From Mesostigma viride (lineage: Eukaryota; Streptophyta; Mesostigmatophyceae; Mesostigmatales; Mesostigmataceae): a DNA stretch of 64,000 nucleotides. Where the stretch lies: assembly GCA_009746045.1 (NCBI GenBank), contig RPFO01000156.1, positions 3,161,262-3,225,261 of the forward strand, written 5' to 3'. A program made the position numbers and the translations under genes. This document shows positions 2,172-53,505 of this stretch, one piece after another; position 1 is the first letter of the stretch; each line of letters begins with the position of its first letter. A model generated the notes under the pieces. The model worked only from the letters and a program-made list of their open reading frames with translations. It was not told the origin of the DNA and ran no database searches.

Positions 2172-3266
2172 ATATGCTCGGATAGTAGTACCTAAGTGGG
2201 ATTTGTCCTATACGTGAACGGACAAGTATGACTATGTGCCAAGTTGTACAATGGCACTAGGACCATTGGTCACTATCTTCACCAGATTATAGTATGGTGT
2301 CATCACTGTCATGTGCATGTCATACCATGCCGTACCGAGTCATGCATGCGCATGCACCATGTTCCAACATACCAGCTGTCGTTATCGACCCATTGTCGGC
2401 CCATGCGCATACCAGGGCCGCCGCCACCACTCACCTACCATAATTACCAATGTTCACGCTACCTTGAGGTAGCCATGGAAAGCCACACCATATGGACGTA
2501 ATAAATAATTTTCCTGGCTCCTGACGCTTAAGTCGGCAATGATTCACCACCTACAAATTATTAATTCCCATAATAATCACACATGCCTTTAACACGGTTC
2601 AAGGCGGAGTCAGATGGCACCACCTTGAAAGTCAGTGTTTCTAGTAAGGGTTTTTGGCACGCGTCAGACGGCTGACACGCCGCTGTTGGCAGCGCGTCAG
2701 ACCATTCCAGTTAGGGGCGGGTCCCAGGGGCCCCACGTACATCTAGGGTTGATTTACCCTCAAAGACCATAAGAAGCGGAATCACTGGGGGATGGGGGTT
2801 GGGGCAGCCAAATTGGGGGCATGGGTGCAAGATGGGACAGGGACATGATGAAATGGGGTTTCAAGCTATATATAGGTGAAGTGCATGGCAGGACAGATAT
2901 TACGACAATATTTCTCATACATGCTTCATACTCAAGAAAACTGGCCTTCTCAAGCTTTGAAAAAGAAAATTTCCAATTTTCCATTCCACAATGTCACAGG
3001 TTTCTGGTGGACTTTAGAAAACTTAAAATCATGTTATAACTTAATAAAAGAATACAAATTACCAGCGGGACCAAAAAGCTTGATTTCTCAAAACTCAAAT
3101 GGCTAGCAAGTAGCACGTCGATCTAGATGTGCATAAAACAGGAGCCCTTAGCTACAAATAACACAAACTGTCAAGCCCCCGGCCCCCCATCCAATGTTCT
3201 CAAGGTATAGGTGCCGCTGCTGACTGAATCTCCCGGGGCCTGTGCATCTAGCCTCACTAGGCACTC
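2172..3266. other. Intergenic, no gene recognised
   Basis: No convincing coding exon or known repeat was seen. The interval separates the plus-strand host exons from the 3' end of the minus-strand hAT gene, and the outer boundary of the hAT element probably lies here. I searched for hAT-type terminal inverted repeats shared with 14623-15000 and did not find a pair I trust. Confidence 0.4.
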
Positions 3267-29346: not shown

Positions 29347-32244
29347 CGTAATGCTTTCATCCACTATGCTATGTCGAAGCTTTATTGCACCCACAGTAGT
29401 TGCTAGACTCTCCCAGCGAGTCATTTGATTAACTGGACATGTGACCTGCCTTGCAAGGCAAGGAAAGAAATGAATTAGAAGCGTCGTGCATGTAGGAAAT
29501 CCGTTTTGCCTCATTTTTGGTGACCAGTCATAAGCCCATGGCACTAAATCATAGTTAGTGTTGTGGCTTGTTCAACTTACAACGGCCCGGGGCATACCCC
29601 ACTTTGGTCGCCATTTTCGATGACAATGCATCTTAGTTGTGAGCTGTTAGTAAAATTATGACCAAATAATGACCTTTCTGATTAGCCGAGCTTCCAGCCC
29701 GCCTTTTATGTTTTAGCCAACACCTCCCAAGGCTGGCTTACATGTGATCGGTTGTTGGCCAGGTCTATTTGTCACAGGCCCCGTGCTGTTGCCATGCTTT
29801 TATCAGGCCGTGATGGAGCTGCTGCAAGTACCAGCCATCATTGCGAATGGCCCAGAATGCATGTCAAAAGCCAGTTCAACACAAAGATGTAATGGCTGTG
29901 ATTACCTCACAGCCTTTCCATGGCATAGCGCCAGTGGTGCATATGCTGCCAAGGGTACTCATGCAGTAAATTCGGTATGCGGTACATCTTCAGAATGCCC
30001 ATGGTAGGCGGGTCGATCCATGGCAGGTGCATGGTAAATGGCAACCATGAGACTTGATATGAGGCTGTGCCACAAACCAATCCAGCTCATCAGAACCAAC
30101 TTTTGATTTATGAATTAAAACTTGTCCTTCCGGGCTCGAATAGCAGCCATGGCTTGAACAGGGTCTGTGCACCCGGCAGACGCCTGGCATGCAGCGCATT
30201 CATGAATGGTTCAGGCCCACATAGCCACGGGAGCGCGCCCATTCACACAAATGTGCGTGTGGGCACACACTACATGAGAAGGTGCGCAACCATTGTTAAA
30301 CAGCAAGTGGAAATACACATATGGGATTGATTAACAAGGTCATGGAAGACCGTGCTTGCAATGAAAAACCTACAACTCATAGCCACGCAGCCTAGTTACC
30401 TGAATTGATTGCAAACGCATCAACATGGTGCACGCAGCAGCATGTCACCAACAATAGCACTCATACATACCATGTTTCGAAACTTGATGAGTATTGAAAA
30501 ACCAACCCAGAAGCGGGGCGACGAAATAAAAGAACGTCACAAAGAGCCAGCGCAGCATAATATTTCCCAAAGCAGAATAGCAGTATTTCTCTAGTGACTC
30601 CGGTCATGCTAGCTCATCTGACTGCTTAGTTGTCGCGCCGACATCACTCCAGTGTGCTCATCATGCTGGCTCATCTGACTACTTAGTTGTCGCACCGACA
30701 TCACTCCGGTGTGCTCATCATGCTAGCTCATCTGAATGCTTGATAGCAGTAGCGCCAATATCACTGTTGGACATGGCACTCACATTTTGATAGCATAAGA
30801 CCATGATATTTGTACATGGCATGCATCTGTGCAGCACATGTACAGGCTATAGATAGAGCACAACTCACGTTAATTATATAGCACAGCACGTACACCGATG
30901 CTACAGTACAAATGCCAAGGTGATTGGTATTACATATACAAGAATGTATAATCACAGCCGCGCGTAAAACCATGGAAGGTCGTATAAGTAACTGATTTCA
31001 TAAACAACCACGTCGGACTCAAGAAACATACCGGCTACCACAAAGATAAGATGATTGACTTGTATACTTATTAAAATGAGTAGATGGCACGAGAATAGGC
31101 TAGCCCGCTAATTAAAAGCCATGGCCAGCCTCTGTGTCCTATATAATGCTTAACTTTTAGCTTCCTGAAATTACCAACATATTTAGCACTACTGGTACAG
31201 TTATAACAAATACATACTAGTATGATAACGTGAGGGTGTAACCCCAGGGGACTTGAGGTCACTCAAAAATTGCCAGTATTACTGAAATCATGCTCCTAGC
31301 TATTGCCGATTTTAAACCACATTGCTAGAAACTGACGTTGTGGACGACGACTTGCACTTTTTTTACGGCTTTGGTGACAGCATATGGCACACGTACAACA
31401 GCCTCCTGGAGACACGTACTGCAGGTAATGGTCATACGATCACTAGCAGCAGACTATACCGCATTGCGAGATACCACAGTTGACACATGTGCCGACAGCA
31501 TTGCATATATAGAGCCCTAACAGTTTGTTAAAAACACATAAGCTATCGAGCTCTAACCCATTCTGTAGGTAAAAGCTAGTACGCGGCGCACTGCATGGTG
31601 CACTTTCAGAACAGCAACGCATAGCCTGCAAGCCAAACTGTTGACTGTCCATTCGCAACATTGAAGTAAAACTAAGCCTTAACGGATTCGCGCTGGCTTC
31701 CAGCGCTGTGCGACTGCGTTAGCACGTCCATGTGACAATACAACAAGACGGTCATTCCCCACGGCGCCGTGATCAATCACTGGCCTCACCATCCTTCCAG
31801 ACACACTGGCATGCATTTCATGCTGGACCAGTCGAACATACCCATTTTCTGTTCAATGTGCACAGCAGACCACTCATCCCCGACATCCCCATGGCCACCT
31901 AAGAATCGCCATCGCACACATTGCATCCCTCAATTCTCCATCCTCCCCACTGCGCCCCACAATCTCCACGCCTGCCCCGGCTCCTGCTTGCGTGCTGGCT
32001 CTCGTGACAGTGATCCGCCATGCCATTTCAATCTAGAATCAGAAGTCGATGCATCGGTGAGCCTGGGCGGCAAATCAAAACAGCAAAACAAGTCTGACTA
32101 TACCGCACTAATAAAGTCCCAAGCTTGTGCTGGCAATTCTACGTCACCATCCATCGTCTCAAAGCAGGGCCTGACCCCTACAGTCACGCGATGTGCTAAT
32201 TGGCTGCGCGGTCGCATCAGGGGTGGCCCCCTATTAGTAGGCCT
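29347..32244. other. Region 3' of the glyoxalase II gene, no gene recognised
   Basis: Mostly AT-rich without supported exons. It may hold the 3' UTR or a missed last exon of the minus-strand glyoxalase II gene. The only clear structure is the tandem repeat at 30605-30770. Confidence 0.35.
30605..30770. repeat. Three tandem copies of a ~60-bp unit
   Basis: Units begin atgctagctcatctgactgc and repeat at about 60-bp spacing with a few substitutions. The third copy diverges. Confidence 0.8.
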
Positions 32245-32454
32245 TCACTTGCACATCCAGTCTTGCCCAAGGCGTACCTTCAAGGCCGGTTCCCGCACCC
32301 GAAGAAAAGGGTTATACGTAAGCTCCTGCCCCATCGTGGACGGCACGGTCGGGCGACCACCCCGGAGCTGTTCCACCACCCACGCGAGCTTTTCGTGGAC
32401 CGCCGTGTTGTCGGCATCCACCGTGCGTGCAAACTCCAGGTTTTTCTTTGAGTA
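32245..32454 (-). CDS. GLO2: GLO2 exon 6 (C-terminal)
   Basis: The acceptor tggctcgcag precedes TAC at 32454. It encodes [18 protein letters not shown] through [14 protein letters not shown]. Reading straight on gives a stop at 32245-32247. A possible donor (AAG/gtacgcc at 32277) would instead lead to an unseen seventh exon holding the short C-terminal helix of the family. Confidence 0.9.
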   Translation of the reverse strand, partial: YSKKNLEFARTVDADNTAVHEKLAWVVEQLRGGRPTVPSTMGQELTYNPFLRVREPALKVRLGQDWMCK

Positions 32455-35400
32455 CTGCGAGCCAGGTGTCAGAAATGCCAGCGCAGATGAGGGCATGATA
32501 AACAAAGCTGCAGTATTGGACCAGGAGGTTAAGTCTAATATTTCTAGCTAGTCTGCGCCGGGTATGCTATTCCAACCAATCTGAGCACTGATTGGAGTGA
32601 GTAGTCTTCATCATGGTAATTTATACCAGGATTAACAATCATGCACGTAATGATGGCACGCACTATATAAACCTGTATGGTAGGGAACACATATACACAG
32701 GAGTGGAAACGAAAACGGTAACGACATCTGGCTGGAAAAATGTACATCTGGTTGACAAATGTTGTACATAGTAATGTCAGAGCACAGAGCTCTAGATAGC
32801 AATGCCTAATTGTGTGAGTTACTTGAAAACTTGTTATACTTGAAATGGATGAATGAAATCTTAAGCTGCTTGGAATGAACGGTGGGCGTTAACAAAAAGA
32901 ATGCCAGATCGGATGGCTGAGTCGGATGGGGGAGGGTGCATGCATGGGTGATTAAGGCGTACTGCTGGATATGATGATCACCTCATGTGCCAGTTATAAT
33001 ACGATGTTACTTTCACCTCTGTCATCGATTCCTTCTTTCCCCCCAAAATTATCTGACATTAATAATTCCAATGTTGAGTTGCTTTACCTCCAATATGCCA
33101 GCTTATTTCGATTTGTCGGCTTGTGTGTCGGATGAAAGAACTAAACATGGTCCATGTGTCAGCAGTTTGGCTTGTGTGTCGGATGAAAGAACTAAACATG
33201 GTCAATATGTCAGCAGGAATACGCTAACAGCGCAACATAGTGCATGCACACCATGCCTGCATCAATACCAGCGTTCATGCGTATGGGCAGAATCATACAC
33301 TGCCTCCCTCGTGGGATATGGTCACTTATAGCGCACCTCGTGCCCTCAGCACGTGCATCGCCAGTGCATGGATTGATTTGTTGATTAAAACCCACGTCGG
33401 ACTGCGTCATGTGAGTCCCAAGACAGGAGATTTCAATATTTGAAACACCACAAGAAGCAGAGTCAGAGCGCCCTACCTTTTCTCACAGCCTAGACGGGCA
33501 GGCCGCAGATCGAGAGAGTACTCTCTCTGCATCATTGAAGGTGCAGGTGCCACAACTATGGACCCATGCTGAATGAGACCTCGCGTTTGTTAGCACGTGG
33601 CGGGATTCTTCAGTCCACATGCCACCTACATGGGCCGCCAGTGGGTCACTTTTGGGTCACCCTTCGGTCAGCCTTGGGTCAGCTCCCATCCATCCCATGA
33701 TCGATGGCTCAGAATCAAGCTTCATGACTCAAGCAGACCCAAGGCTGACCGGGGCGCGGCCCATGCGCTCACGGGCATATTTAGTGATTGTCTCCCCAGT
33801 ATTATATAGTGCTTGAACCTGATTAACACCTGCTGATAGCTTACCTCGTGCCTGGCTGCCCGCAGCACACCAGTCCATGCATGTGGCCAATGGGCATATT
33901 TGTTGACCGTTTCCCCCATGCAGGACACCATGTACTGTACCCCCGACATCGAGTACGTCGTGATCGCAGTACAAAAGTCCACGTGGCCAATGGGCATATT
34001 TGTAGACCGTTTCTCCAGCACACCATGTACAATACCCCCTAACGCCTACTATAGCATACCTCGTGGCCGCAGTACACCAGCGTGTCGGGTGGCAGCTTGG
34101 CAAGCACCCCATTGAGTGCGTGGTCCATGTCTGCTGGGGATCCTTCGAAGAACCGGCCACACCCGGCCACAAACTGCAACCGGCCGTCCAACGGCATGCA
34201 CCATAAATAGCAGCATAAATAAATAGCAGCGGATTAAGCCGACACTGCTGTAGTCAGCAGCCCGGTCGGCATTGATTAGATAAAGATGGAGGGTTAGATC
34301 AAGATCGAGGGTAAGTAGATATAACGATCGAGGGTAAGTAGATACGATCGAGGGTGATTCGATAACGATCGAGGGTAAGTAGATAACGATCGAGGGTGAT
34401 TAGATAACGATCGAGGGAAAGTAGATAACGATCGAGGGTGATTCGATAACGATCGAGTGTAAGTAGATAACGATCGAGGGTAATTAGATAACGATCGAGG
34501 GAAAGTAGATAACGATCAAGGGTGATTAGATAACGATCGAGGGTAAGTAGACAACGATCAAGGGTGATTAGATAACGATCGAGGGAAAGTAGATAACGAT
34601 CGAGGGAAAGTAGATAACGATCCAGGGAAAGTAGATAAGGATTGAGGGTGATTAGATAACGATCGAGGGTAAGTAGATAAGGATCGAGGGTAATCAAGTT
34701 CGGCGGCTCAAGCCTGGCTGAACAGACACCTCAGAGCAGCAAGGCAGTTCAGAAAAAAACTAAGGATGCATGCATGATAGTTGGTTGGAAAGCGCTGGAA
34801 AAACCAAATGCCAATGGCTGAATTCTGGAGCCACGTTAGGCTAGGGATTCGGCTGCGTTGGAAAGCGAGTATCGCCAGGGACTGGTAAGTTTTTGGACTC
34901 CCTTGATTGGATCCCAGATGCATGTGGCGTAATACTCAATGATCGCTGTCAACTGACATTCTGTCATGATTTGCTTGCAAAGTGTAATGCTGATTGCTGA
35001 ACTATGTCTACACTGAGCTTTCTCTACCTGGCCAGCAAGATCATGCTCAAGCGCCAGTGCACGCTGAAGTAGCTGCTTCTGGATGGACAGCAGTCTAAGG
35101 GCACCCCACATGCAAGCCGAATGATAGAACAGTCTAAGGGCAAGTCACATGCCGAATGATAGAACTGTGTGGCCAGCCATGCAAGGGTCAGGGTTACTAT
35201 CGCAACCATGTCTGCTGACAAATCCTATCTATCGCCAGCCACGCAATGATGCATGAGGTCGGCAAGTGGGATGCAGTTGACATCCACGAATGTTCTGTCT
35301 GTTTATTGACATAAACCCAACATGAAAAGTGCTCACATATAAAAATATATACTACTAAGCCCAACATGCACAGCGCTCACAGGCACACTTGAAGGCGGGT

Positions 35401-38400
35401 TGTACGATGAATGGTAAGTACTAAGAGATAGTGTATCCCCCTTCTACAGTGACCAAGTTATGATGCACCATGTTAATGGTTCCCTGCACGAACCTCTCCG
35501 CCATATTTAAAATCTAGCATTTGTGACAGCCGAGGCAGCTCCGCCTTGACAACCAACGAGTACCAACAAACACGCCCATGCAGTTCCCACGTACACAGCC
35601 AGCCTCCCTCTGCGCCCTGGCAGCGATGCCCCAGCTGTTCTGGGCCGACCCCCGGGCTCGGCTAAGCGACCTAATCCTGCCCTAGCACAATATAACACAA
35701 CCAGCAGCCTCAGTGAGTGCTCACGAACCGACCGTTAGTATGTTGGTCAACTAATTACATCACTCCGCGGCCATTGGTTTCTGATGGAAACAGGAAACCA
35801 AATTATGGTGCATCTACCCTGTGATTGTATGCAAAAACTAAACTATAACCCAGGATGCCTCGCCTCACGTCCCTCTAATAATCCATTTTGCTCTTCATGC
35901 TCTTCATTTGCTCCATGCGAAGCTCTAAGAACACCATCCCGACCTTCTCACAACACTCACAGTTCTCACAGCGTGACACCCACCCTATAATATAGTTCAT
36001 CATGGCCAACTTGGGGGGTTGTGGGTTGTGGGTTAACCCTGGGTATGCCCCTAAAAACCCTCAGGCTCCGGGAGAGGCCTTTATACTCAGACTCCCAAAC
36101 TGGCGCCTCTAAATGTGATCCAAGCCTATCTGTGGGCTCTGGACCATGGGGCAGCCTTACTGCATCCGCTATGAGTCAGCCATGCTTTGCCCATGCAGAG
36201 AGCCACTCCCTGCTGAGACGCCATCATGCCCTAGCCATTGCCTAGCCATGATCATCTTCCACCCCATGTCCGCAACTTTGCACAGCTGCTGGAATACATG
36301 GTGGTGCAGGTGCACCTCAGTTGTGCACCCCGAGTAGGTGGCAATTTACACCCACCACCTGCAGGTTGTCGCCTAGAATGTATTAACCCTTAGTCGGGAA
36401 ACTACCCGACCTGTCGGGTAGTTTGACTAACGGTCGAATTTCGCGCCGCGCCGTGAGCGCCGCGCCACCTGTGACGGATGTCAGTGGTCCGGTGGGTCCG
36501 GGAACACTTATGGACGAGGGTGATGCATAGGTTTGGGGGTAATATTCGCCATAGCTTGGTAATTACAACGTGCATTGAGCAGGTATCACGTGACTTTGGC
36601 GGGAAATTTTCACTCGCGCGCGCGCGTAACGAGATATGGCTGCCAGCATGCCGTTCTCACGGAAATTTTGCGTGTCGAGGCTAGAAACGGTTCAGAATTT
36701 TGCTCAGAATGACTATGCGTGATTTTCGTAGGTCAGGCATGGCCAAACTTGTAGGATTGGGAAAATTCAGGTAGGAAAATACTGCCTTCTGGGTCGTCAG
36801 TGCCAGATGAGTAATCGCTTATCATATTTCCATTTTATCCTCATGGCCGGGCAGTCTGCGCAAGCCCAAGCATCCAGATTTGGTACCGGATGTCCGCTGA
36901 TGCGTTTGCTGGGAATGCGGACGCGTTTACAGGTAATATTTGAACGGAGCATCAACCTTGTAATAATAAAGGATGCATGCATGATGCGGCTATGGCGACC
37001 TATGCCTGTAAAGCAATGGTATGTGTGAGATATGAGGGTCCCGGCCAGTGAAATCCGGGCAGGACGTGAACGAGCCAGGTACGGCAACGTGTTTGCGTGT
37101 CCTTTGCAGCGGATTACGTCTCCCATGCATTATATTTGACGAGCTTTTTAGTGCACCTTTCAGCAAGCCTCCATGCCTGCTGTAAAGAGGGGTATTAGCC
37201 CTGAAAGTGACCAGTTTATGGCATTTCTTTGGAGCATATCATTTCGTTAATGCAGGTAGGCAACATGTTTGTATTCCAGCACCTTTGGCAATCTTTTATA
37301 GCTTGTTATAATGCATTCTTGTATTGCATGTCATAGATGGCTGTTTACGCGCGCGTAACCCACACACATGTATGAGCACCTTATATAGGTCTAATGGGTT
37401 ATCCGGGTGGTCTGACCCAAGGAAAGCACCATTGGACTATCCAACTAAGTTGTCCAATGTTGTTGTTGAGGTTCCATACCCTCCCTGGGAAGTTAGGTGG
37501 GGGTTCACTTTTCCTTGGGCAAAAAAGATCGTCTTTTGGCCAAGTTTGACTGGAGCTATCATCCAAATGCTTCGATAAACCTGTGGTATTATTGCATATT
37601 CTGAAAGCCCTCGAAGTGTAGATACTCCTAGCATCTTGGTTGGGGGCATTTGGAGTTGTGGCCTGTGAGTTATGATTTTTCTCATTTTCAGGGGTCTGAA
37701 AGTGCCAAAAATGGTCCTCCCGACTAAGGGTTAAAAACCATATGCCCCTTCTCAGGGATATGTGTTACATATCCTCCCCATGTGCGGAGGTATGTTCTTA
37801 ATTAGTTCAACTTCTACTTTCTAGGGATATTGAGGCCATTAATGCCAACGACTTACCAGGGTGTCCCCGGTGAACACCGCCCCAGGCTCGTTGGGCGTGC
37901 GCTTGTCTGTCACGTAGTAGCAGATGTGGCCACCCGTGTGGCTGCCCGCCGGGGACCAGCATGCGACGCAGGGTGCAAGCAATGCAAGGGTTTCCAGCGG
38001 AGCAGCGGATGGCACTTGGTGAGGACGATAACGATTTCCGAGGATGGAGTTATTGCTGATGCAGCACATGAGATATGTAATTTAAGTCCTCCATTATGCA
38101 GTATATTTTGTAAAATGAGGCAGTACAAGCGTTACCTGAGACCTTAAAAGATGTTCCTAGGGTCTTGCTCACAAGCTCGACTCTTGTTTCCCACAGATTG
38201 ATCCTTTAAAAAGCCAAAGCCAATCCCATCAGGGGGTTGATGAGCCGCATGAACTTGGCTACTAGCTAACACGTTCAACTGTCCTCACGTGTACGCACCC
38301 TCGTCATACTGGGAGCGCCATGCTCTATCTGCCTATTTCTACCCGCCCTATACCACCTGTCCACGGGGGGGACTAGGACAAGAAGGCGGCAGATATCTCT

Positions 38401-41400
38401 AAAGCAGAGCACCGCGGAGTGCCACGTATAGGCGATCGACACGGAAGAATACAGCTGCAGGCTAAATATAGAGTAACTCAAAGCCACAGGATGTGACTGC
38501 ACAGAGATACGAGACAACCAACATGAGGCACTTCATCAATAATTGCAGTTGTGTCCCCACTCAATACATGCGCCGCACCGGTCACGCGACTGCCGGTGTC
38601 TGCCTCACAGCGGAAGCAACGGACGTAGACCAAAATCACATTTTGGCGAGAAGGGCGAGCTTAAAATTGTCTGCTATTATGTCACATGGTGCAAAAAGTC
38701 ACTATTAATAACGGCCAACAGATGCAGGTCACTATGCTGGGTGCAAACAATTCCAATAATTATAGCTAATGCACAACTCAGCAGGACAGGATGGCCGAGC
38801 CGCTTACCATGCATGCGCACATTTCATCCCTCATCATGGTCATCATGCAGCCACACACGTTATTGTCCCCCGATGGGTCCCTGGCATGCTCAAGGATTCG
38901 TACGAGGTTTTGAAGAAATACCCACCAGGGTGTGTGGAGGCAGGTGACCTCCAGGGAGGATGCCAGGGTGAACGTGTCGCCATGCTGGACGGGCTTGGTG
39001 CAGGCAGGGACCTTGTCCAGGGTGCCGCCCACGATTGTAACACCTGGCAGGGACGCGGCCATCGTCTCGTTCCCCCCCGCGTGGTCCCTGGGTGGTTGAG
39101 TGGGTGGAGGCGCCGAGAGAGTTGGGACGCACCCCATTCGTGCAAAAAGGCAGAAAGGCATTAGGCTACACATTAGTCGATAATGCTCTGACACTCACGC
39201 AAGTCATTACAATCAAAATCAAATCAACAGGCCCAGCCACACCAACAAGCCCAGCCTGCACAGCCAGCCACACCAACAGGCCTGGCCACAACCATCCACA
39301 CCAACAGGCCTGGCCACACCCAGCCACACCAACAGGCCCGGCCACACCCAGGATGTCAGGTTTCTCTTCACATGATCCACAGGCAATTGTGCTGGGCGTC
39401 GCGAGGGCTACCCCTTCCATAAGGGGTGAGGGGTCATTCTGCTTAGTTCTAGTTACACGGCACCACTAGCATTATATAATGTGATGTCCAGTTGAGCTTC
39501 GCGAGGGCTACCCCTTGAGGGGGTAGGATTCCCTAGTCCCTCGTCCTAAAGGGAGCTTACCAGTGCCGGTGCGTGGTCAGGTCCTAAAGGGAGCTTACCA
39601 GTGCCGGTGCGTGGTCAGGTCCTATAGGGAACTTACCAGTGCTGGTGCGTGGTCAGGTCCTACAGGGAGCTTACCAGTGCCGGCACGTGGTCAGGTCCTA
39701 AAGGGAGCTTACCAGTGCCGGTGCGTGGTCAGGTCCTACAGGGAACTTACCAGTGCCGGTGCGTGGTCAGGTCCTAAAGGGAGCTTACCAGTGCCGGTGC
39801 GTGGTCAGGTCCTACAGGGAGCTTACCAGTGCCGGTACGTGGTCAGGTCCTACAGGGAACTTACCAGTGCCGGTACGTGGTCAGGTCCTATAGGGAACTT
39901 ACCAGTGCCGGTACGTGGTCAGGTCCTACAGGGAACTTACCAGTGCCGGTACGTGGTCAGGTCCTACAGGGAGCTTACCAGTGCCGGTACGTGGTCAGGT
40001 CCTACAGGGAGCTTACCAGTGCCGGTACGTGGTCAGGTCCTACAGGGAACTTACCAGTGCCGGTACGTGGTCAGGTCCTACAGGGAGCTTACCAGTGCCG
40101 GTGCGTGGTCAGGTCCTAAAGGGAGCTTACCAGTGCCGGTGCGTGGTCAGGTCCTACAGGGAGCTTACCAGTGCCGGTACGTGGTCAGGTCCTATAGGGA
40201 ACTTACCAGTGCCGGTGCGTGGTCAGGTCCTACAGGGAGCTTACCAGTGCCGGTGCGTGGTCAGGTCCTACAGGGAGCTTACCAGTGCCGGTGCGTGGTC
40301 AGGTCCTATAGGGAACTTACCAGTGCCGGTGCGTGGTCAGGTCCTACAGGGAGCTTACCAGTGCCGGTGCGTGGTCAGGTCCTAAAGGGAGCTTACCAGT
40401 GCCGGTGCGTGGTCAGGTCCTACAGGGAGCTTACCAGTGCCGGTGCGTAGTCAGGTCCTAAAGGGAGCTTACCAGTGCCGGTACGTGGTCAGGTCCTACA
40501 GGGAGCTTACCAGTGCCGGTGCGTGGTCAGGTCCTACAGGGAACTTACCAGTGCCGGTGCGTGGTCAGGTCCTATAGGGAACTTACCAGTGCCGGTGCGT
40601 GGTCAGGTCCTACAGGGAGCTTACCAGTGCCGGTGCGTGGTCAGGTCCTACAGGGAGCTTACCAGTGCCGGTGCGTGGTCAGGTCCTATAGGGAACTTAC
40701 CAGTGCCGGTGCGTGGTCAGGTCCTACAGGGAACTTACCAGTGCCGGTGCGTGGTCAGGTCCTACAGGGAGCTTACCAGTGCCGGTGCGTGGTCAGGTCC
40801 TACAGGGAGCTTACCAGTGCCGGTGCGTGGTCAGGTCCTATAGGGAACTTACCAGTGCCGGTGCGTGGTCAGGTCCTACAGGGAACTTACCAGTGCCGGT
40901 ACGTGGTCAGGTCCTACAGGGAGCTTACCAGTGCCGGTACGTGGTCAGGTCCTACAGGGAACTTACCAGTGCCGGTGTGTGGTCAAGACGGTCGTGATCT
41001 GCACGCCTTCTGCCTTCGCAGCACTGAGCACCTTCTCGGGCCCTGCTGGGTCAACGGCGGCCGCCTGCTTGGTGCTGTCGTCCACTACCCTGTGGAGTAG
41101 TAGGGACACACATGCGCCTGAGTGAGTGCATTCCCAGCGTAAGTTGTGAAATTTTAGGCGCAGGGAAATTTCCATGCAAAGCGTTGAGAAAAACAAGGCG
41201 CTGAGAATCGTCGTCGTCACGCCAGCTAGACGTATAGTCGGCCCGTGGTCCCGGCGTGCTGATTCGGACGTGCCTCACCTGCCGGCCATGGGTGACTATC
41301 ACACACAATATATATATATATATTGCAACGGATAGCAATCAAAGTCAGGCGAATGACCTGACAGATAACAAATATCAACATCTTGAACATACATAAAGCT

Positions 41401-41864
41401 ATATAACTTAGTAATTTCATCTAACAAACTACAACAAAAGAGCCCCCTCCCCAGGCATTTCTAATTCTAAGCGATTCAACTTGCATAGTGGAAATTCAGT
41501 GGAAAACACTAGTCGACGCAATACTTCCACGAAGATGACATTACTACTACATTAACCAGAGCGACAACTCTCCCCTTAACAAATAGCGAAAGAATGCGTA
41601 TATACAGGATACTGTGATGCCGACCAGTGAGCTGCAAAGTAGCAACTTATTAATTTCTTGGGTCGTTAGCAAGGTTACACTTTTTCATTACATTGTCGAG
41701 ATAGTTTCCCACACTGAGCAAACAAGTCACGTGGGGTAGAACGCTCAGTGAGGTGCTGCGAAGTATATATCATCCATAGCAATTTATCGGAATGCTACCT
41801 CGACAAGATCCACTTACAGGTAGGAAAAATTATCCTCTAGGACCGGGACAATAACAACTCTCAT
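32245..41864 (-). CDS. GLO2: Glyoxalase II (hydroxyacylglutathione hydrolase), six exons, complete
   Basis: The enzyme hydrolyses S-D-lactoylglutathione to D-lactate and glutathione, the second step of methylglyoxal detoxification. I joined exons 41864-41818, 41089-40967, 39087-38926, 37941-37857, 34173-34060 and 32454-32245; all introns are GT-AG and every phase matches. The product is 246 residues (family usually 250-260). It starts [16 protein letters not shown] and carries the metallo-beta-lactamase motif THRHWDHAGGN across exons 2/3, [16 protein letters not shown] across exons 3/4, GAVFTGDTL, then [26 protein letters not shown] and [22 protein letters not shown]. All expected metal ligands are present. 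No targeting peptide is seen, so it is probably cytosolic. The final residues depend on whether the last exon reads through to the stop at 32245-32247 or splices at 32277. Confidence 0.95.
33116..33217. repeat. Two tandem copies of a ~51-bp unit in GLO2 intron 5
   Basis: The unit begins ttggcttgtgtgtcggatga and is repeated once with few changes. Confidence 0.8.
33870..34035. repeat. Imperfect ~100-bp duplication in GLO2 intron 5
   Basis: Two copies of a segment including gtggccaatgggcatatttg and accgtttc..cca..acaccatgtac, one starting near 33877 and the other near 33980. Confidence 0.7.
34060..34173 (-). CDS. GLO2: GLO2 exon 5
   Basis: 38 codons in phase 0 from [18 protein letters not shown] to DTLVYCGHE, between acceptor ggttgcag and donor gtatgc. 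It holds the last metal-ligand histidine (CGHE). Confidence 0.95.
34285..34700. repeat. Tandem array of ~21-bp units in GLO2 intron 4
   Basis: About 19 degenerate units of the form gataacgatcgagggtaagta / gggtgatta / gggaaagta. The minus-strand open frame through it ([12 protein letters not shown]...) is a repeat artefact. Confidence 0.9.
34701..36149. other. GLO2 intron 4 sequence, nothing recognised
   Basis: Unique-looking intronic sequence with a few short direct repeats (gcccaacatg near 35320-35370; ccgaatgatagaac twice near 35115-35165). No exon or complete element was seen. Confidence 0.4.
36150..36386 (+). repeat. TTAA-tailed retroposon copy 2, first part (inside GLO2 intron 4)
   Basis: Homologous to the reverse complement of about 28850-29110 (shared blocks include cacctgcaggttgtcgcc and ctgcatgggcaaagcatg on opposite strands). 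It is interrupted at the TTAA at 36383-36386 by the piggyBac-type element and resumes at 37731. Confidence 0.65.
36387..37730. mobile_element. piggyBac-type non-autonomous element, TTAA-flanked (1.34 kb)
   Basis: Perfect 13-bp TIRs, CCCTTAGTCGGGA at the left and TCCCGACTAAGGG at the right, are flanked by TTAA on both sides (36383-36386 and 37731-37734). CCC-starting TIRs with TTAA duplications are the piggyBac hallmark. Just inside the left TIR is a perfect hairpin, AAACTACCCGAC-CT-GTCGGGTAGTTT (36399-36424). No transposase frame is visible. It splits a TTAA-tailed retroposon within GLO2 intron 4, and removing it restores that repeat. A canonical E2F-like site (TTTGGCGGGAAA) is at 36595-36606. 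Confidence 0.85.
36595..36606 (+). promoter_or_regulatory. E2F-consensus site in the piggyBac-type element
   Basis: TTTGGCGGGAAA matches the E2F/DP consensus exactly. It is followed by a CG-alternating run. Function is not shown; it could be chance. Confidence 0.3.
37731..37812 (+). repeat. TTAA-tailed retroposon copy 2, second part
   Basis: Continues the repeat cut at 36386 (ccccttctcagggatatgtg and tccccatgtgcggagg) and ends in a short cttaatta tail. Confidence 0.65.
37857..37941 (-). CDS. GLO2: GLO2 exon 4
   Basis: 85 bp from acceptor ggcgggcag to donor gtaagt. It encodes [18 protein letters not shown] through AVFTGDTL, including ligands His and the bridging Asp. Confidence 0.95.
37942..38925 (-). 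other. GLO2: GLO2 intron 3, nothing recognised
   Basis: 984-bp intron bounded by gtgggt and ggcag. No repeat family or exon recognised inside. Confidence 0.6.
38926..39087 (-). CDS. GLO2: GLO2 exon 3
   Basis: 162 bp. It completes THRHWDH and encodes [20 protein letters not shown] through LEVTCLHTP, then splits the Cys codon at the donor. Confidence 0.95.
39225..39358. repeat. Short tandem array (ccacaccaacaggcc) in GLO2 intron 2
   Basis: About six degenerate units of 22-25 bp rich in CCACACC and AGGCC. Confidence 0.8.
39543..40986 (-). repeat. 38 x 38-bp minisatellite spanning the GLO2 exon 2/intron 2 junction
   Basis: Exactly 38 units of 38 bp with no indels: start positions are spaced by 38 from 39543 to 40949. 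Polymorphic sites are few (cctaaa/cctaca/cctata, ggagc/ggaac, gtgcg/gtacg). On the gene's strand each unit contains CACCGGCACTG/GTAAGTTCCC or a near variant. The unit at the exon edge supplies the end of exon 2 and the functional donor, so 37 further donor copies follow in the intron. It is not a CRISPR array because there are no unique spacers. Plus-strand open frames through it are artefacts. Confidence 0.97.
40967..41089 (-). CDS. GLO2: GLO2 exon 2
   Basis: 123 bp. It encodes [20 protein letters not shown] through [13 protein letters not shown] and the first two bases of the next Trp codon. Its last ~20 bp belong to the first unit of the 38-bp minisatellite. Confidence 0.95.
41090..41817 (-). 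other. GLO2: GLO2 intron 1
   Basis: 728 bp from gtaagtgg to ctccacag. It contains a TA microsatellite near 41307-41323; nothing else recognised. Confidence 0.8.
41818..41864 (-). CDS. GLO2: GLO2 exon 1 (start codon)
   Basis: Encodes [15 protein letters not shown] plus two bases of a Leu codon. The start agrees with the conserved N-terminus of the family, and the donor is gtaagt. Confidence 0.93.
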
Positions 41865-42120
41865 GGTGTCGATTCTTGGCGCAAGGGGCTCGTAATTCCG
41901 TCCCTTGCAAACTGGGAAGCAGGCCCTCGATTACTGGGCATACCAAGATGAGTATTGAGAGCTCTATCCTGTAAACATTGGGTGATGATAATTGTTGACG
42001 GCCTGCTACCAGCTTGCAACTTGCAACCAAAATGTTGCGTAGCGCTACTGTAGCGCATCGGCCGATCGGAATCGAGATTGCTAATTCTGATTGCTCCAGA
42101 ATTGCCATCGCCAACATTTT
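41865..42120 (-). promoter_or_regulatory. GLO2 5' UTR and proximal promoter, truncated by a LINE
   Basis: 256 bp between the start codon and the LINE A insertion. No TATA box was recognised. The last 12 bp (CGCCAACATTTT, 42109-42120) are the LINE target sequence. Confidence 0.5.
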
Positions 42121-42201
42121 CCAGGTAAATAGGTGTACGTTTATTCCAAATATAGCCAGTAGGTAATCCCTGCTAAGCCTAGGGTATCAAGATGTCAGTG
42201 G

Positions 42202-43440
42202 CTAAAACGGAGCCTTACTAGACCACGGAAGCCACTGGACTTCTAATGGGTTGTCATTGGGCATGTGGGTAAAGATCCTGTTTTTGCCCATGAGGTCATG
42301 AAAGATCTCAAGTGGGCTGGGCTTATCCTGGTCCGCGCCAGGGTCCCAGATTTTGTTTTGTTCATTTGCAACCATCCAGTAGCGTCGCATGCCGGAGTTC
42401 CATAGGTAAATGAAGCGTGAGAGAACCCCAGCTTTGTCGAAAACTGTGCGCCTATTGAACACCACATCGTTTCGCACCGTCCAGATTGTATATAACATGC
42501 ATGTGCGGAGCCATATCCACGCTTGTTGTGAAAAGGTGAGCTCAAGGCCAGGGGTGCCAGTGATGCCAAAGATAATTGAGCGGGTAGACACCGGTATGAT
42601 AGGCTCAGACGTCCAGGCTGCCCATAAACCAATCAACCAGGTCCAAACTCCCTGGAGGTTACACCATAAAAATCGGTGTTCCACAGTTTCAGTGGGGTTG
42701 GTACATAAACATGTAGCAGGGTGTTGAAATCGCCGGTGGAGGATCTCCCCGACCCCGATGGACCGGTGCATCAAGAGGTGTTGTACGTCGGTCGCGCGGC
42801 GATCAATCAGCGGGTGGTCAACGGCGAGGGTGATGTTGCGGACCCAGGTGTGGCCAGGCCACTCAAAAGCGCCCCAGCGTGTCCGTCCGGGGTGGAATTG
42901 ATGGTTTTTATGCAAGAGCATTGTGTAGCCCCACTCTGCCGTGTACTCGTAAAGGCCTTTTACAGTTCTGCTGTCACCCTGATTTAGCACCCAGCCAAAT
43001 TCCACTGGATCCAATGACAACATGTCCAGGCGGGTTGATCCCACATGTAGCCAAATAATAGCAGCGTCTGGAAGGTTGGGGTTGGGTTGGTATACACATG
43101 ATTGTTCAAGGGACCAAGGTACAACCCGAATCCGGTGGCATAGCTGGGTGGGGAGGAACACCACTGCAGTTGTAAGTTGAGCCAGACTGCCATTGTGGCC
43201 GCTCAGCGGCGCCAGTAGTTGAACGTGCAGGGTTCCAAGGGGGAGTTCTGCGATCACCTTCCCCGAGCATGTTGCGGTCGTGCTGTATGGACAAAAGCAG
43301 CACCATTCACCAGCTTTATAGGGGGCACGGGGAGAAGTCATGAGTGTGTGCCAGCGGGGGGGTATGGCTTGTACTAGCGCGGCCCAGGCAGCATAAGTAG
43401 GCATATTGGGGACCCAGGCAGCCAGTTCGTTATATGTTAA
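42202..43440 (-). pseudogene. LINE A C-terminal domain (zinc-binding, RVT-associated)
   Basis: About 410 residues continuing the RT frame once the TTAA element is removed (joined codons YRLLTYNEL). It contains the CLCTNPTETVEHRFLWC pattern (C-x-C ... H-x4-C) followed by GVWTWLIGLW and IWTVRNDVVFN, typical of the zinc-binding domain downstream of plant and algal LINE RTs. The stop is at 42202. The region is otherwise open. Confidence 0.85.
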
Positions 43441-45159
43441 CACGTCCCCTGTAGAAACTCAGTCCTAAAAATAGGACTGAGTATACCATCTTTGAGATCA
43501 TGTGGCGGTAAGGGTAGGGGGGTACCCCATATATTTGATATGCATCATAGCACTCAATATCATGCTAATGCTTGGGTATGTGCTTAAAAAATCATATGTT
43601 GACCAAATCATGTAAAATTATACATGACTCTCAACCCTTACTCGCGATTTTGGAATTTTCTGTGGAAGCACGAGTGTGTAAAATCCAATAAAATCCATAT
43701 TCACTATTAAAAATCATAGGCGTGTAGATATTAGAGTTCTTGAACTGTGGAAAAAAACTGGACTCAATTCGGCCACTGGCACTGCCTGAAACATGCAAAA
43801 CACTGCCAGTCCTATAAATAGGACTGGGCCTTGGTAACAAAATGCTAGCATGGGAGTGCGGTCGTACTACACACCACCGTGGCCACCAACCATGCCAATC
43901 AACTCATTTCCCTTCCAGCATAATAGGACAACATGCTTGCATCATCATATTGCAGTTATATTATACCTTATAATGTGTGAGAGCCTATGCAAGCACGTAG
44001 GGAATGGGTTTGGATACCTACCCACGAAAGGTTTTTTTGTGTGTGTTAACCACCAATGTATTGGGCAGGTTAAGCATATTTCAAGTGTCTCTAACAAGAA
44101 TGGACATGGATGAAACTGTTTTGCCTTGCCATGGCATGGCCAACATACTTGCTGGCACATGATGACAGTGGTTTACCACCAAGATCTTTCACTCACCCAT
44201 ATAAGCTTGAAAGCACCCTTGACGAGGCCCATGGCCACACAATTATGCAGTATGAACGTAGCAAAAGAACAACTAACATCTATGAAGGTGTTTAAACCCA
44301 TACAGCGCCTAAAAACCTGCACAACTACACCAGGGCAAGGCAAATGCCTGGCAACATCATCTAAAAAGGGGGTTTTGGAGAGGGGCAGGCAACGGTCAAG
44401 AAAGAGCATCAAGACTCGAAACTGGCAACACCTCGCAAGCTTAAACTCATGTAAGAACATCAAGAAATGATGAGACAACGATATTCCGGCTTTACCTTGC
44501 ATGGCTGGCGTTACCTTGGCCCAGGCGGTGCCCGCAAAAGTGGAACTTTGAGGCACACACACCATGAAGTGACAGAGTGGTCGAAATCATCAAATCTATA
44601 CTGCCACTAAGTCAATTCTATGACCATGCATGATAACAAGTAGAAAGAAACCTATAAACCCTTTGACTTGCGCCGGAAAGCAGTTGTAGTAATCAATTCC
44701 GTCGGCCTGCCTGATCGCAGCTTTTTCCAGCAAGAACGGTGCCGACACCTAGTAAATCGCATTTCCGCGAGCTGAAAATTGACTTGTATCATCTCTATGA
44801 TATATAAAAACTATTTCCTGAGTTTGGCCAGCTATATCGTCGGAAAACGTAAACTGCATGCATGGGCGCAAGCCGCCATGGCTAGGTCGTGCATTTCCGG
44901 AACGCACGTTTCATGTGGAAAAGTACCCTTACCACCTGTTCTTTGACCGTACATTTAGCCGCTCATACCAAATCCAAAAAAATCGCAAAAATATGTCCAA
45001 GAAAGATCTTTTCACGTAGTATTTGAATAAATTTTGAGGGAATTTTTTTGACAAACCTTCCGATCGGGGCAAATTTTCTACGAAACCCCAAATCTCAGTC
45101 CTAAATTTAGGACTGAGTTGAACTCAGTCCTAAAAATAGGTGTGGCTACAGACGACGTG
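43441..45159. mobile_element. TTAA-flanked non-autonomous element inside LINE A (1.7 kb)
   Basis: TIRs CACGTCCCCTGTAG (left) and the reverse complement of CACGTCGTCTGTAG (right) are flanked by TTAA at 43437-43440 and 45160-45163. Deleting the element plus one TTAA restores the LINE frame exactly. Close to each end are hairpins built from AGTCCTA...TAGGACT: 43459-43482 at the left, 45096-45119 at the right, and another internally at 43808-43827. No transposase is recognised. TTAA suggests piggyBac mobilisation although the TIR does not start with CCC. Confidence 0.82.
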
Positions 45160-45163
45160 TTAA

Positions 45164-47404
45164 GAGGCGGTAGCAGTCACCGTGGAGAATATACAGGTGG
45201 AGAATAGTGGTTACAGGGTGGGGGGATGTTATGAAGCCTTCATAGGGGTTAGGGCCACTTAAGCATCCAAAGGGGCGATTAAGGGGGTTGAGGTATATAT
45301 CATTAAAGAATAGGGGTTGGCGTGCAACTTCCTCACGTAGTGTGGGGAATAGTAGGCGGTCGGGTTTAAGTGCCATAAAGCCTTGCCATATACGAGCCCA
45401 GTACCAAGGAAGACCTCTGGTGAGCTTCGGGGAGGGGAGGCGAGCAGTAAGCAGTGCGGCTCCAGAGTGCCAGGAAATACCATTGGAGTGATGAGTAAGA
45501 CGTGAGAGGGTTACACGTGCCAGAAGACATCCAGGGTGGGTGTTGACACCAATGTGGGCAGAGATAACTTGTTTGGCATACACAGACCATAAACGCCATT
45601 GCATATTGTGTAAGCCTAGTCCTCCAAGAGGCCACGGCATAAAAGACATTGACTCTCTGATCCATCCGTGTACCTGGCGGCTGAGATCGCTCGATTTTTT
45701 CCAAACAAAGTTATGCCCCAGTCGTTGAATAAGAGACACGGTGTGTTCATCCGGTGGGTGGGCCTGACCGAAGTACAGCAGCTTGGAGAACAGCAGCTGG
45801 TTCGTAACGAGGACCTTGCCCCGGAGGCTGAGGCGGTGTACGCCAGCCCAGCGGTTGGCCACCTGTTGTACACCAGTAAGTTTGCCCAGTTGTTGTGATT
45901 CGTCGTATAAAAAGGTTTTGACTTCCAATAACCTCCCTTCGGCTGTCCGACCGATAGGGCAGTTATGCAAAAGGTGGTATCCTCCTGGCGGGACCCATGT
46001 CACCGCCAGGTTAGTAGGTTGGAGAGTCGGGTTGGTTGTTCTGCCAATATGCAAGCCCGTGGACTTTTGCACGTTGCAGCGTTGTTGGGAGGCGGTACAG
46101 TATGTAGATATGTTCTCAAGCACAGCATCAACATCACGCAGGGAGGTGCAAATGTTAGTAGTGTCATCGGCGTAAGCAGTTTGAAACAGACCACGTGTGT
46201 GGTGAGGGAGGGGGTAGCCTTGAATACGGCTGTCCTGTTGATGAAGAAAGAAGAGGCCAGCGTGAGCGAGCAGAAAGAGAAGGGGAGAGAGACAGTCGCC
46301 TTGTGGGAGAGAGCGTGTGCTATGGCCTATTTGGGATTTATGTCCATTAATTAGTAGGTGCCAAGTGAGGGATTTGATCATGCCTAGACTGACCTTAATA
46401 AGTTTAGGTCCAAATCCAAGCCCGTGTAGTATAGCCTCGAGGTATTTCCAACATATGCGGTCGAATGCCTTTTCAAAATCCCAAAATAAAATAAGACCTA
46501 TAATATTGTTGCGCCATGCGTCATCAACAATGTCCATGATCATGGTGATGCTGTCGCTGATGTGTAGGTTGGACCTGAATCCAACTTGTTCCGGGCCGAT
46601 CAGATTATCTAGTACACTGTAGAAACGGCGTTGCAAGAGTTTGCTGGCTAGTTTGTAAGGGACTGTGAGCATGCGAATGGGTCTATAATTTTTCCAACTT
46701 GTTTTATCCCCTTTTTTGTGTAAGAGGATGAGGATTGTTTCCGACCACTGGCCCACAACAGTTTCGGTGTTCCAGATTTCCAGGATGCATTGGTATAGAT
46801 CCCTGCCTATGAGGGGCCAGAACGTTTTAAAAAACTCTACTGGAAGGCCATCTGCACCAGGTGCGCTACCGGTTTTGAGATGTTGGAGTGCTAGAGATGT
46901 TTCTTCCATAGTGGGGCTGGCGTCTAGTAGAGCTTGTTGTGACGGAGAGAGGCGGTGGGGAATTGCATCGAGGATTTTTTGTGTGGCTGTATTTGCAGAG
47001 GGGTCGGGTTCTGTCCGGAACAGGGTGGAGAAAAAAGCATGTCCAGATTGTAGGATGTCTTGGGGGGTGGTATGGGTGCCAGTCTCGTCTGTAATTTCTG
47101 TGATGGTGGTTTGTGAGCGCGGGGGTGGGATAAATGCAAAGAATTCCTTATTCATTCGTTCACCCTTGACATGCCACCATGTATTTTCCACATCTAGGGC
47201 TTCTGCGTGGCGTTCAAGGCGTAGCTTATCCATCTCAGTCTGGCACAGTTGCAGTCGTGTTAACTCGTGCGGGGCTAGGCGGGGTTTGGATTGCAACATA
47301 GTAATAACGCGTTTGTAGTAATTGTAGTCTTTGCCTTTTATGCGGCGTTGTTCTAGATCGTAGGCCTTAGAGGAGTCAAGGATGTGCGAGAGGCATGCTT
47401 GCAT
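45164..47404 (-). pseudogene. LINE A reverse transcriptase
   Basis: Reads from about 47404 (in fact continuous with VREQWRDWKTK just upstream, after a frameshift) through LKTGSAPGADGLPVEFFK, NYRPIRMLTVPYKL, the motif A region FWDFEKAFDRICWKYLE, SLPQGDCLSPLLFLL (motif B) and FQTAYADDTTNIC (motif C, YADD). All catalytic aspartates are present. RT copies the element RNA at the nicked target. The frame is interrupted at 45163 by the TTAA element and resumes at 43440. Confidence 0.9.
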
Positions 47405-50559: not shown

Positions 50560-51350
50560 ATGGTAACATGGTGACATTTGCTAGCAAAAAATACCGTATT
50601 TTCAGCACTTTCTGGCATGTATGCATATATAATGACATCAAATGAACTCAGTTGGGCCTGGAACTTTGCACATGTTCTAAACACATCCCATGCAGCATGC
50701 CCACAAAGTTTCAGGCTGGTTGGATGACACATTGGTGACAAATGCTAGCATAAATACCCAAAAAATGCAGTTTTTCATGGTTTTTTAAGGGTTTTATCAC
50801 ACATATGCATACATAATGACACCAAATGAACTCAGTTGGGCCTGGAACTTTGCACATGTTCTAAACACATCCCATGCAGCATGCCCACAAAGTTTCAGGC
50901 TGGTTGGATGACAAATTGGTAACAAATGCTAGCATAAATACCCAAAAAAAGCAGTTTTTCATGGTTTTCCAAGGGTTTTATCACACATATGCATACATAA
51001 TGACACCAAATGAGCTCAGTTGGAGCTGGAACTTTGCACATGTTCTAAACACATCCCATGCAGCATGCCCACAAAGTTTCAGGCTGGTTGGACGACAAAT
51101 TGGTGACAAATGCTAGCATAAATACCCCAAAATGCAGTTTTTCATGGTTTTCCAAGGGTTCCAACACATGGGTGCCTATATCAATGAACTCTGAACAGCC
51201 TAGAACTTTGCACAGCTCATAAAAACATCTATGTTAACTGCCCACAAGAAATTCAGACTATTTGCATGACCAATAGGTGACAGATGCTAGCAACATTGCA
51301 CAAAAAATGCAGTTCCTAGTAATTGTTTTTCAAGGGTTTCATCCCATAGT
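50560..51350. repeat. 184-bp tandem repeats
   Basis: Three clear units spaced by 184 bp (aatgacatcaaatgaactca at 50631, equivalent positions 50815 and 50999) and a degenerate fourth unit near 51183. Each includes ctggaactttgcacatgttc and cccacaaagtttcaggctgg. Confidence 0.92.
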
Positions 51351-51534
51351 TGCAAGTCAACCATTCCAGTTTGGGATATATAGTCAGGTTCCCAACAACA
51401 CATCTTGATGATATATTATGTGATATTGCAGGAAGGCAGACTTAGGGGCACACGCCCATGATACAACGTCAACATGTACATCAACAACACACACGTAACT
51501 TAGCTAATCATCATAATAAAAAGCACACCTTCCC

Positions 51535-52515
<981 letters not shown>

Positions 52516-53505
52516 ATCAATCATGCATCCATTCATTCATGCATGCATCCACTCATTCATGAACATGCCTCCGTTGGCCAGGGGTTCAAAATGATGCAAC
52601 AGGCACCAAAAAAGGGAGAAGGAGCCGCCTCCCCAACGTGCCGCCCGGCGACGGCAGCGATGGGCCCAGGGGGGGAACAGTGCGCTTTGTCTTGTTCGCC
52701 GGGGGTGAGCCGGCGGGGTGCGGGCACTGTCGCGTTTTATTTAGCCCGCCCGCCCCAGTCCTTCTCGGAGTGCCTTCTCAGGCCATGGCGTCAGGGTAAG
52801 AGTTCGTTTCGCCCGTCGCCGGACGCTTAAACCACTAGACTACGCCGGTTAATTACGACAAGAAAGCGGGTTACGACGATAGAAACCAGTAGATGGTGGT
52901 TCTCCCGCACCCCGGGCACACCAGCGACGTCGGCAGCGAGCCCCGCCCGCAGGTTATGCAGCTGACGATGTTGCTCTGCCCAAGGGAAGTCATAAAGCTG
53001 CAAAAAAAGGGGTAAAAGCGATTAAATCCACGACATGCATTTTTGCCCCTGTCAGCGCTCCTATAAATCTGACTTTTACGGGAAAATTGCGTGCAACATG
53101 GAAACGCAAAATTAAGGGAATCGCTGTGCTGGATTTCTTCGAAATGATATAAGGAATCGTTCGAAAGTGTGCCCTCCCACCAGTAGCGTCTAATCTGTGC
53201 TAGCCATTACCTTGAACACGCAGGGGTGGCTGCGCTCGGCGCGCGAAACTGGCCACTGCTGCGTGTTTGCCCTCGCACACACACACAAAAAAACTGTTTA
53301 CCGACCTTTTTTTTGCAGAATAAATTTCCTTACGTCAATGCCGATCGAACAAGCGAAATCCGGTACAAAATGGCTTCGTAATCCGTGCACAGTAAATTTT
53401 CACGCCACCATAGCCTTCGCAATGAAATTTGCACTCAACATCTCCCGCGCGCACCGAATTTCGTCAATTTCACCCCGGATTTGCCGCGGACACTTCGGCG
53501 CGGCG
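52516..53505. other. Right interior of the TIR element, nothing recognised
   Basis: Contains short direct repeats (atgcatccattcattc) and GC-rich sequence around 52620-52840. No supported exon or transposase. Confidence 0.4.

Follow-up and report, generated by a model that had tools for sequence, protein, structure and literature searches.

The GLO2 gene of Mesostigma viride carries, at the junction of its second exon and second intron, a minisatellite in which the exon end and its 5' splice site are repeated in 38 serial units on the strand of the gene. The locus lies in a stretch of 64,000 nucleotides of contig RPFO01000156.1 (hereafter the window, to which the coordinates refer unless another sequence is named), and it raises the question of where such a series of splice donors came from and which of them the gene uses. 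The answer proposed here, drawn from comparison of sequences, is that a minisatellite born on the exon-intron boundary has probably spread into intron 2 and would be spliced out with that intron, the first donor doing the work.

Structure of the array

The minisatellite occupies positions 39543-40985 on the minus strand and was characterized by TRF (period 38, 38.0 copies, 95% matches, 0% indels), by alignment of the units and by a search of the assembly. It consists of 38 units of 38 bp, the last of which lacks its final base and is 37 bp long; the first-pass annotation of this DNA had the number of units and the period right, and erred in giving all units exactly 38 bp and in placing the end at 40986. 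On the minus strand the unit reads TGACCACGYACCGGCACTG followed by GTAAGYTCCCTNTAGGACC, plus singleton changes at four other positions. It comprises 19 nt from the end of GLO2 exon 2 and then 19 nt from the opening of intron 2 with the donor GTAAG, the boundary between the two being set by reading frame and homology. When the 439,911,974 bp of the assembly were searched for 30 nt of the unit, with up to two mismatches allowed, 37 places were found, all of them within the array (the search may skip common words). With 38 near-identical units chance need not be considered.

The donor core CACTG/GTAAG is kept in all 38 units on the minus strand. Position +6 of the donor is C (GTAAGC) in 23 of the 38 units and T (GTAAGT) in 15, so that the earlier statement that all other units repeat CACTG/GTAAGT holds for the core and fails at the last base. 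Among the 37 full units 7 of the 38 columns vary, three recurrently (columns 9, 25 and 31) and four once each (5, 8, 10 and 13), and the remaining 31 are invariant; this replaces the three or four variable positions described at first sight. The full units fall into 12 types that are mixed in order, which makes the array unlike a simple assembly stutter. Runs of identical types extend to four units, and private changes are found in unit 1, in the distal units 35 and 36 and also in the inner unit 15. Homogenisation, which had been suggested as well, is compatible with these data, but the signal is weak: lag 4 taken alone gives p 0.02 and the best-lag test over 12 lags p 0.18.

The GLO2 gene and the source of the unit

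Seven minus-strand exons join into a GLO2 protein of 249 amino acids. Exon 1 (41818-41864) and exon 2 (40967-41089), the latter ending in ...TTHRHW, were placed by open frame, splice signals and homology. Exon 3 (38926-39087, starting ...DHAGGN), exon 4 (37857-37941), exon 5 (34060-34173) and exon 6 (32278-32454) follow from the exon model, and exon 7 (31672-31713) was taken from the JGI Mesostigma viride model P0001, in which it is the same. The 236-aa product of exons 1-6 gave Pfam matches to HAGH_C (1.3e-18) and Lactamase_B (1.3e-13). Intron 2 (39088-40966 in the exon model) is 1,879 nt long, and 1,424 nt of it (76%) are array.

Unit 1 (40948-40985) was found, by unit alignment and the exon model, to comprise the coding end of exon 2 and the intron 2 donor, CACTG/GTAAGT. 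The proposed true donor of intron 2 sits in this unit, with the first intron base at 40966, and the array begins 19 nt upstream of the exon 2 end; the claim that the outermost unit holds the exon end and the donor is borne out by frame and homology. Together with the initial G of exon 3, the exonic part of the unit gives (T)TG followed by TTHRHW; exon 3 continues with DHAGG, and the joined exons yield the conserved sequence TTHRHWDHAGG. The copied 19 exonic nt encode part of the metal-binding motif THxHxDH, which is present in 119 of 120 listed homologues (the best 120 of 4,472), the exception being P0001. These 19 nt therefore represent ancestral coding DNA, and the unit derives from the exon, in agreement with the first impression that the exon-end sequence belongs to the unit and that the array extends from the boundary into the intron.

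The peptide TTHRH is altered in 13 of the 37 full units (11 TTYRH, one TTCRH and one TTHQH), and the interior of the array carries changes that the protein could hardly bear. Unit 1, which is the only coding unit in the proposed mRNA, keeps TTHRH; that the motif is lost in 13 of the other 36 full units and intact in this one supports the use of the outermost donor.

Further repeats were observed in the same region. Intron 2 contains a second array with a 28-bp unit (39232-39351), about 145 bp before exon 3, and intron 4 a 21/42-bp array (34273-34693), about 100 bp before exon 5, which was rejected as a donor array since its GTAAG is antisense to GLO2. In the Mesotaenium GLO2 model P0002 a repeated segment, FVAGCGRFF...FCGHE, coincides with Mesostigma exon 5, which suggests that intron positions 4 and 5 are common to both algae. 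A LINE-like, reverse-transcriptase-like coding sequence, judged by eye, lies just upstream of GLO2 (about 42240-46500, minus strand), and a 184-bp tandem repeat (50620-51314) and a (CCCA)n tract of 984 bp (51533-52516) are found elsewhere in the window.

Choice of the splice donor

A local duplication whose unit by chance straddled the boundary of exon 2 and intron 2 may have given rise to the minisatellite. The extra copies would fall downstream of the first donor, and would thus be intronic and removed along with intron 2. The outermost donor, transcribed first and nearest the exon 2 acceptor, would be the one chosen by the spliceosome; its use would leave the protein unchanged and the array free to grow, shrink and drift. 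Use of an inner donor would produce an mRNA with a stop after TTHRHW, expected to be discarded or non-functional.

When exons 1-2, the retained units and exon 3 were joined in silico for each of the 37 inner donors, one identical 57-aa product was obtained every time, because TG/GTAAG reads TGG TAA: the first new codon is TAA, and translation stops directly after TTHRHW (57 of 249 residues). The argument that an inner donor would shift the frame, 38 not being a multiple of 3, is true for length and moot here, TAA being the first new codon in 37 of 37 cases. The suggestion of the first-pass annotation that the array is tolerated as only the outermost donor works gives the best-fitting reading, with the amendment that a stop and not a frameshift would penalise inner use.

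Predicted pairing with the 5' end of U1 amounts to -9.1 kcal/mol in 15 units (unit 1 and 14 inner ones) and to -8.0 in the other 23. By this prediction unit 1 is among the better donors, not alone, and the inner donors as a class are not weaker. That 14 of the 37 inner donors equal unit 1 in predicted pairing, the others being only slightly weaker, counts against a choice of the outermost donor. Where a strong 5' splice site is duplicated, splicing can prefer the intron-proximal copy, and on that basis inner donors would be expected to be used. The idea of an RNA structure hiding the inner donors was rejected, no unusual fold having been found in the two stretches folded (z 0.33 and -1.07), and the tuning of splicing efficiency, which had been proposed as one role of the array, received no support in the tests run.

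The immediate stop from every inner donor, together with predicted U1 pairing that nearly equals that of unit 1, would also suit a regulator by unproductive splicing, in which some transcripts use inner donors, hit the TAA and are degraded, so that GLO2 output would depend on array length or on the availability of U1. The human ABCA7 gene offers a precedent: single-unit retention and length-dependent splicing, with isoform ratios that change with length, are described in the available text of the report (PMC5954066). At four other proposed exon ends, L051, L044, L058 and L039 (see below), reading on into the array likewise meets a stop, after 6, 13, 15 and 20 codons, respectively. In these four siblings, however, the stop is not immediate and lies past the first retained unit (unit lengths 16, 38, 40 and 29 nt), and in GLO2 it is a consequence of intron phase and of the donor word itself (TG/GTAAG), for which selection is not needed. 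A regulatory role of this kind is considered rather unlikely.

A further alternative is that the array is mis-assembled or that exon 2 ends elsewhere. The best protein match of GLO2 is P0001, whose 100% identity over 76% of the query assigns the window to Mesostigma viride. This model omits exon 2; its N-terminus reads MAGR-DHAGG and includes neither exon 1 nor exon 2. Within 39088-46000 on the minus strand, only ATGGCCGGCAG could encode MAGR in one piece and in phase; it lies at 41289 with GT directly after it, and the start of P0001 fits the 11-nt stretch 41289-41279, within intron 1, joined to exon 3. A model without exons 1 and 2 gives the outer junction no support. Against this alternative, the join of exon 2 to exon 3 yields the conserved TTHRHWDHAGG and the unit types are mixed in order; moreover, P0001 seems to skip real GLO2 exons 1 and 2 together with the array, and repeat masking is the likely cause of their loss. 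An artefact or a misplaced boundary is thus held to be very improbable, and the boundary minisatellite with its first donor in use is retained as the preferred reading.

Donor arrays elsewhere in the genome

A search for GGTAAG in three closely spaced copies, the loose pattern, gave at least 16 distinct arrays over C1 plus some 3.2 Mb of C2, namely the GLO2 array, the second window array and 14 others. A strict pattern, AGGTAAGT three times, gave at least 8 arrays, 7 of them new relative to the loose listing; these arrays are a sample. Of the 23 tandem GGTAAG arrays so collected 21 were scored, L052 and L059 being left out since the array or the first donor was not recovered. For each array the 99 nt preceding the outermost donor were given a codon-usage score and compared with a null of 2,400 random positions. 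The training set, 500 codons in all, was drawn from GLO2 and from five exons belonging to three further genes, an ABC transporter and a dynein (both recognised by eye) and a kinase.

Coding-like sequence was found to run into the outermost donor in 5 of the 21 scored arrays, GLO2 included, at p <= 0.03. The GLO2 array has p 0.012, with GLO2 itself in the training set. L039 (p 0.016) and L044 (p 0.025) were assigned by open frame and codon usage alone, and for L058 (p 0.023) and L051 (p 0.027) codon usage is joined by Pfam support for the gene and for the ORF, respectively. The binomial chance is 2e-4 for 5 of 21 and 0.0018 for 4 of 20 without GLO2, with a cut-off chosen post hoc and a null of random sequence, not of matched introns. 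Among 19 GGTAAG sites taken without selection from L053 and the remainder of the window, none scored as high, the best reaching 4.4 vs 7.5 for L051. On the opposite flank 0 of 15 arrays (window and L039-L051) reached 0.03, the lowest value being 0.18; this control is largely void for L054-L060, where the array mostly extends to the end of the fetched stretch, and a control score of 32 at L057 was set aside as coming from a CCG repeat. L060 has p 0.065, yet a 525-nt open frame runs into its first donor. L043 (p 0.53) and L048 (no open frame) were rejected as donor arrays at exon ends.

At L051 an RTX-repeat ORF of 2,034 nt runs into the donor (PF00353, 2.8e-104). Beyond the L058 array, and on its strand, lie exons of a glycosyltransferase of family 41, the joined peptide of which passed the Pfam cut-off (PF13844, 3.7e-07); its matches to O-GlcNAc transferases in the PDB are weak (0.0028 at best), and the pre-array exon gives only about 10 residues of them. 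L058, L061 and L062 (C1215:892683-894448) together make up a donor array that extends over about 1.8 kb in units of 40 and 44 bp, longer than that of GLO2. No Pfam match was obtained with the short exon peptides of L039, L044, L051, L043 and a dynein-like exon, nor with the longer joined L039 chain and the L060 ORF. Matches of a joined L044 peptide to Hanta_Gc_C (E 0.014) and of another joined peptide to GIL1_IRKI_C (0.061) fell below the cut-off and were taken as chance. By open-frame, codon-usage and homology tests the remaining sampled arrays gave no supported upstream exon.

Four arrays (L042, L049, L050 and L056) were seen by eye, in antisense translations, to lie in introns just before exons (acceptors) of opposite-strand genes, a placement that puts tandem repeats at intron 3' ends too. 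Among the neighbouring exons one is dynein heavy chain-like (no Pfam match) and one kinase-like (PF00069, 1.2e-4, below the cut-off).

The like architecture at the exon ends of L039, L044, L051 and L058 supports the boundary-minisatellite reading of GLO2, and the recurrence of boundary arrays in the Mesostigma viride genome is moderately, not strongly, supported. It is tempting to speculate that several genes of this alga have independently turned their own exon 3' end and donor into minisatellites, as a genome-wide habit by which introns grow from the 5' end; this may be so, and is on balance doubtful. If true, gene finders would lose the affected exons and the spliceosome must choose one donor among dozens.

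Counted genome-wide by units and not by arrays, the strict pattern occurs at 115+78 = 193 places and its reversed word at 88+70 = 158, without clear enrichment; the loose pattern, counted in the same way, occurs at 3156+2921 = 6,077 places vs 5897+3191 = 9,088 reversed, again without clear enrichment. These counts, taken with the codon-usage result, suggest an excess, over expectation, of donor-bearing arrays at exon ends; they do not suggest that donors are amplified above other words. A U1 snRNP sink, proposed in the first-pass annotation, or a recruitment platform for U1, in which 38 serial donors concentrate U1 and so make splicing stronger, guard against premature polyadenylation or titrate U1, would agree with the donor core intact in 38 of 38 units, but is highly improbable and found no support, as 31 of 38 columns are invariant and the donor is not specially conserved, and tandem arrays show no clear excess of strict donor words.

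Significance

Dozens of near-equal donors in series are a natural experiment on 5' splice-site choice, and the immediate stop makes errors easily counted. Of greatest interest is the moderately supported recurrence of such arrays within a single genome. If several genes of one early-diverging streptophyte carry such arrays, boundary minisatellites would be a route to longer introns, and the spare donors may give rise to new exons or introns. The locus is also a warning that repeat masking may remove real exons from gene models, as may have befallen exons 1 and 2 of GLO2.

Comparison with known systems

A minisatellite of splice donors at an exon end is reportedly found in the human IFI6 (6-16) gene, where it is said, in work attributed to Turri in 1995, to provide multiple donor sites, several of them in use; its unit is reportedly 12 bp, vs 38 bp in GLO2.

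A likeness in architecture is seen with the amphioxus 'mirages', minisatellite-like tandem duplications of exon-intron boundaries in the Adh3 and globin genes, with units of 10-72 bp in Adh3 and 150-160 bp in the globins; they are length-unstable, and regular splicing is said in the available text to be undisturbed (PMC3087553). In GLO2, too, the unit spans an exon-intron boundary and a splice signal recurs throughout (G/GTAAG in 38 of 38 units), and in both cases several loci per genome are concerned. The GLO2 array differs in lineage and in its 38 copies of 38 bp, as against the few copies of the larger globin units; moreover, the mirages include acceptors and have known length instability, whereas the GLO2 array is read from one assembly.

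The human ABCA7 intron 18 VNTR has a 25-bp unit, the first two bases of which are the exon 18 donor, in about 12 to 427 copies; the first donor is canonical, and the alternative products comprise one-unit retention, use of a cryptic acceptor and exon 19 skipping, as given in the accessible part of the report (PMC5954066). Both genes have serial units that start from the exon's own donor, and in GLO2 the first array donor is the canonical one by reading frame and homology. In ABCA7 the GT opens the unit and that text mentions no exon sequence in it, whereas the GLO2 unit has 19 nt of exon. Some ABCA7 transcripts use a second donor located one unit further on, and that VNTR is polymorphic with measured splicing effects, while the GLO2 array is known here from its sequence. 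As analogues, the amphioxus mirages and the use of the first donor in ABCA7 support the first-donor reading of GLO2.

Internal tandem repeats at exon-intron boundaries are described in human segmental-duplication genes, where, as in GLO2, expansion of a boundary minisatellite alters gene structure; in the available text they are linked to novel introns in recent paralogues, whereas in GLO2 an existing intron grows (PMC2812944). In the green algae Chlamydomonas and Volvox tandem repeats are likewise concentrated near intron-exon junctions, crowding toward intron ends; the main text contains no word beginning 'splice', and the available passages show no unit with the exon's own donor (PMC3887541). 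The main text of the Mesostigma genome paper contains no word beginning 'intron' or 'splice' (PMC7027972), and in the parts available of the open-licence literature, which is weak evidence of absence, no report of such an array in a streptophyte alga was found. Boundary minisatellites are thus an already known kind, of which the GLO2 array is a new and long case.
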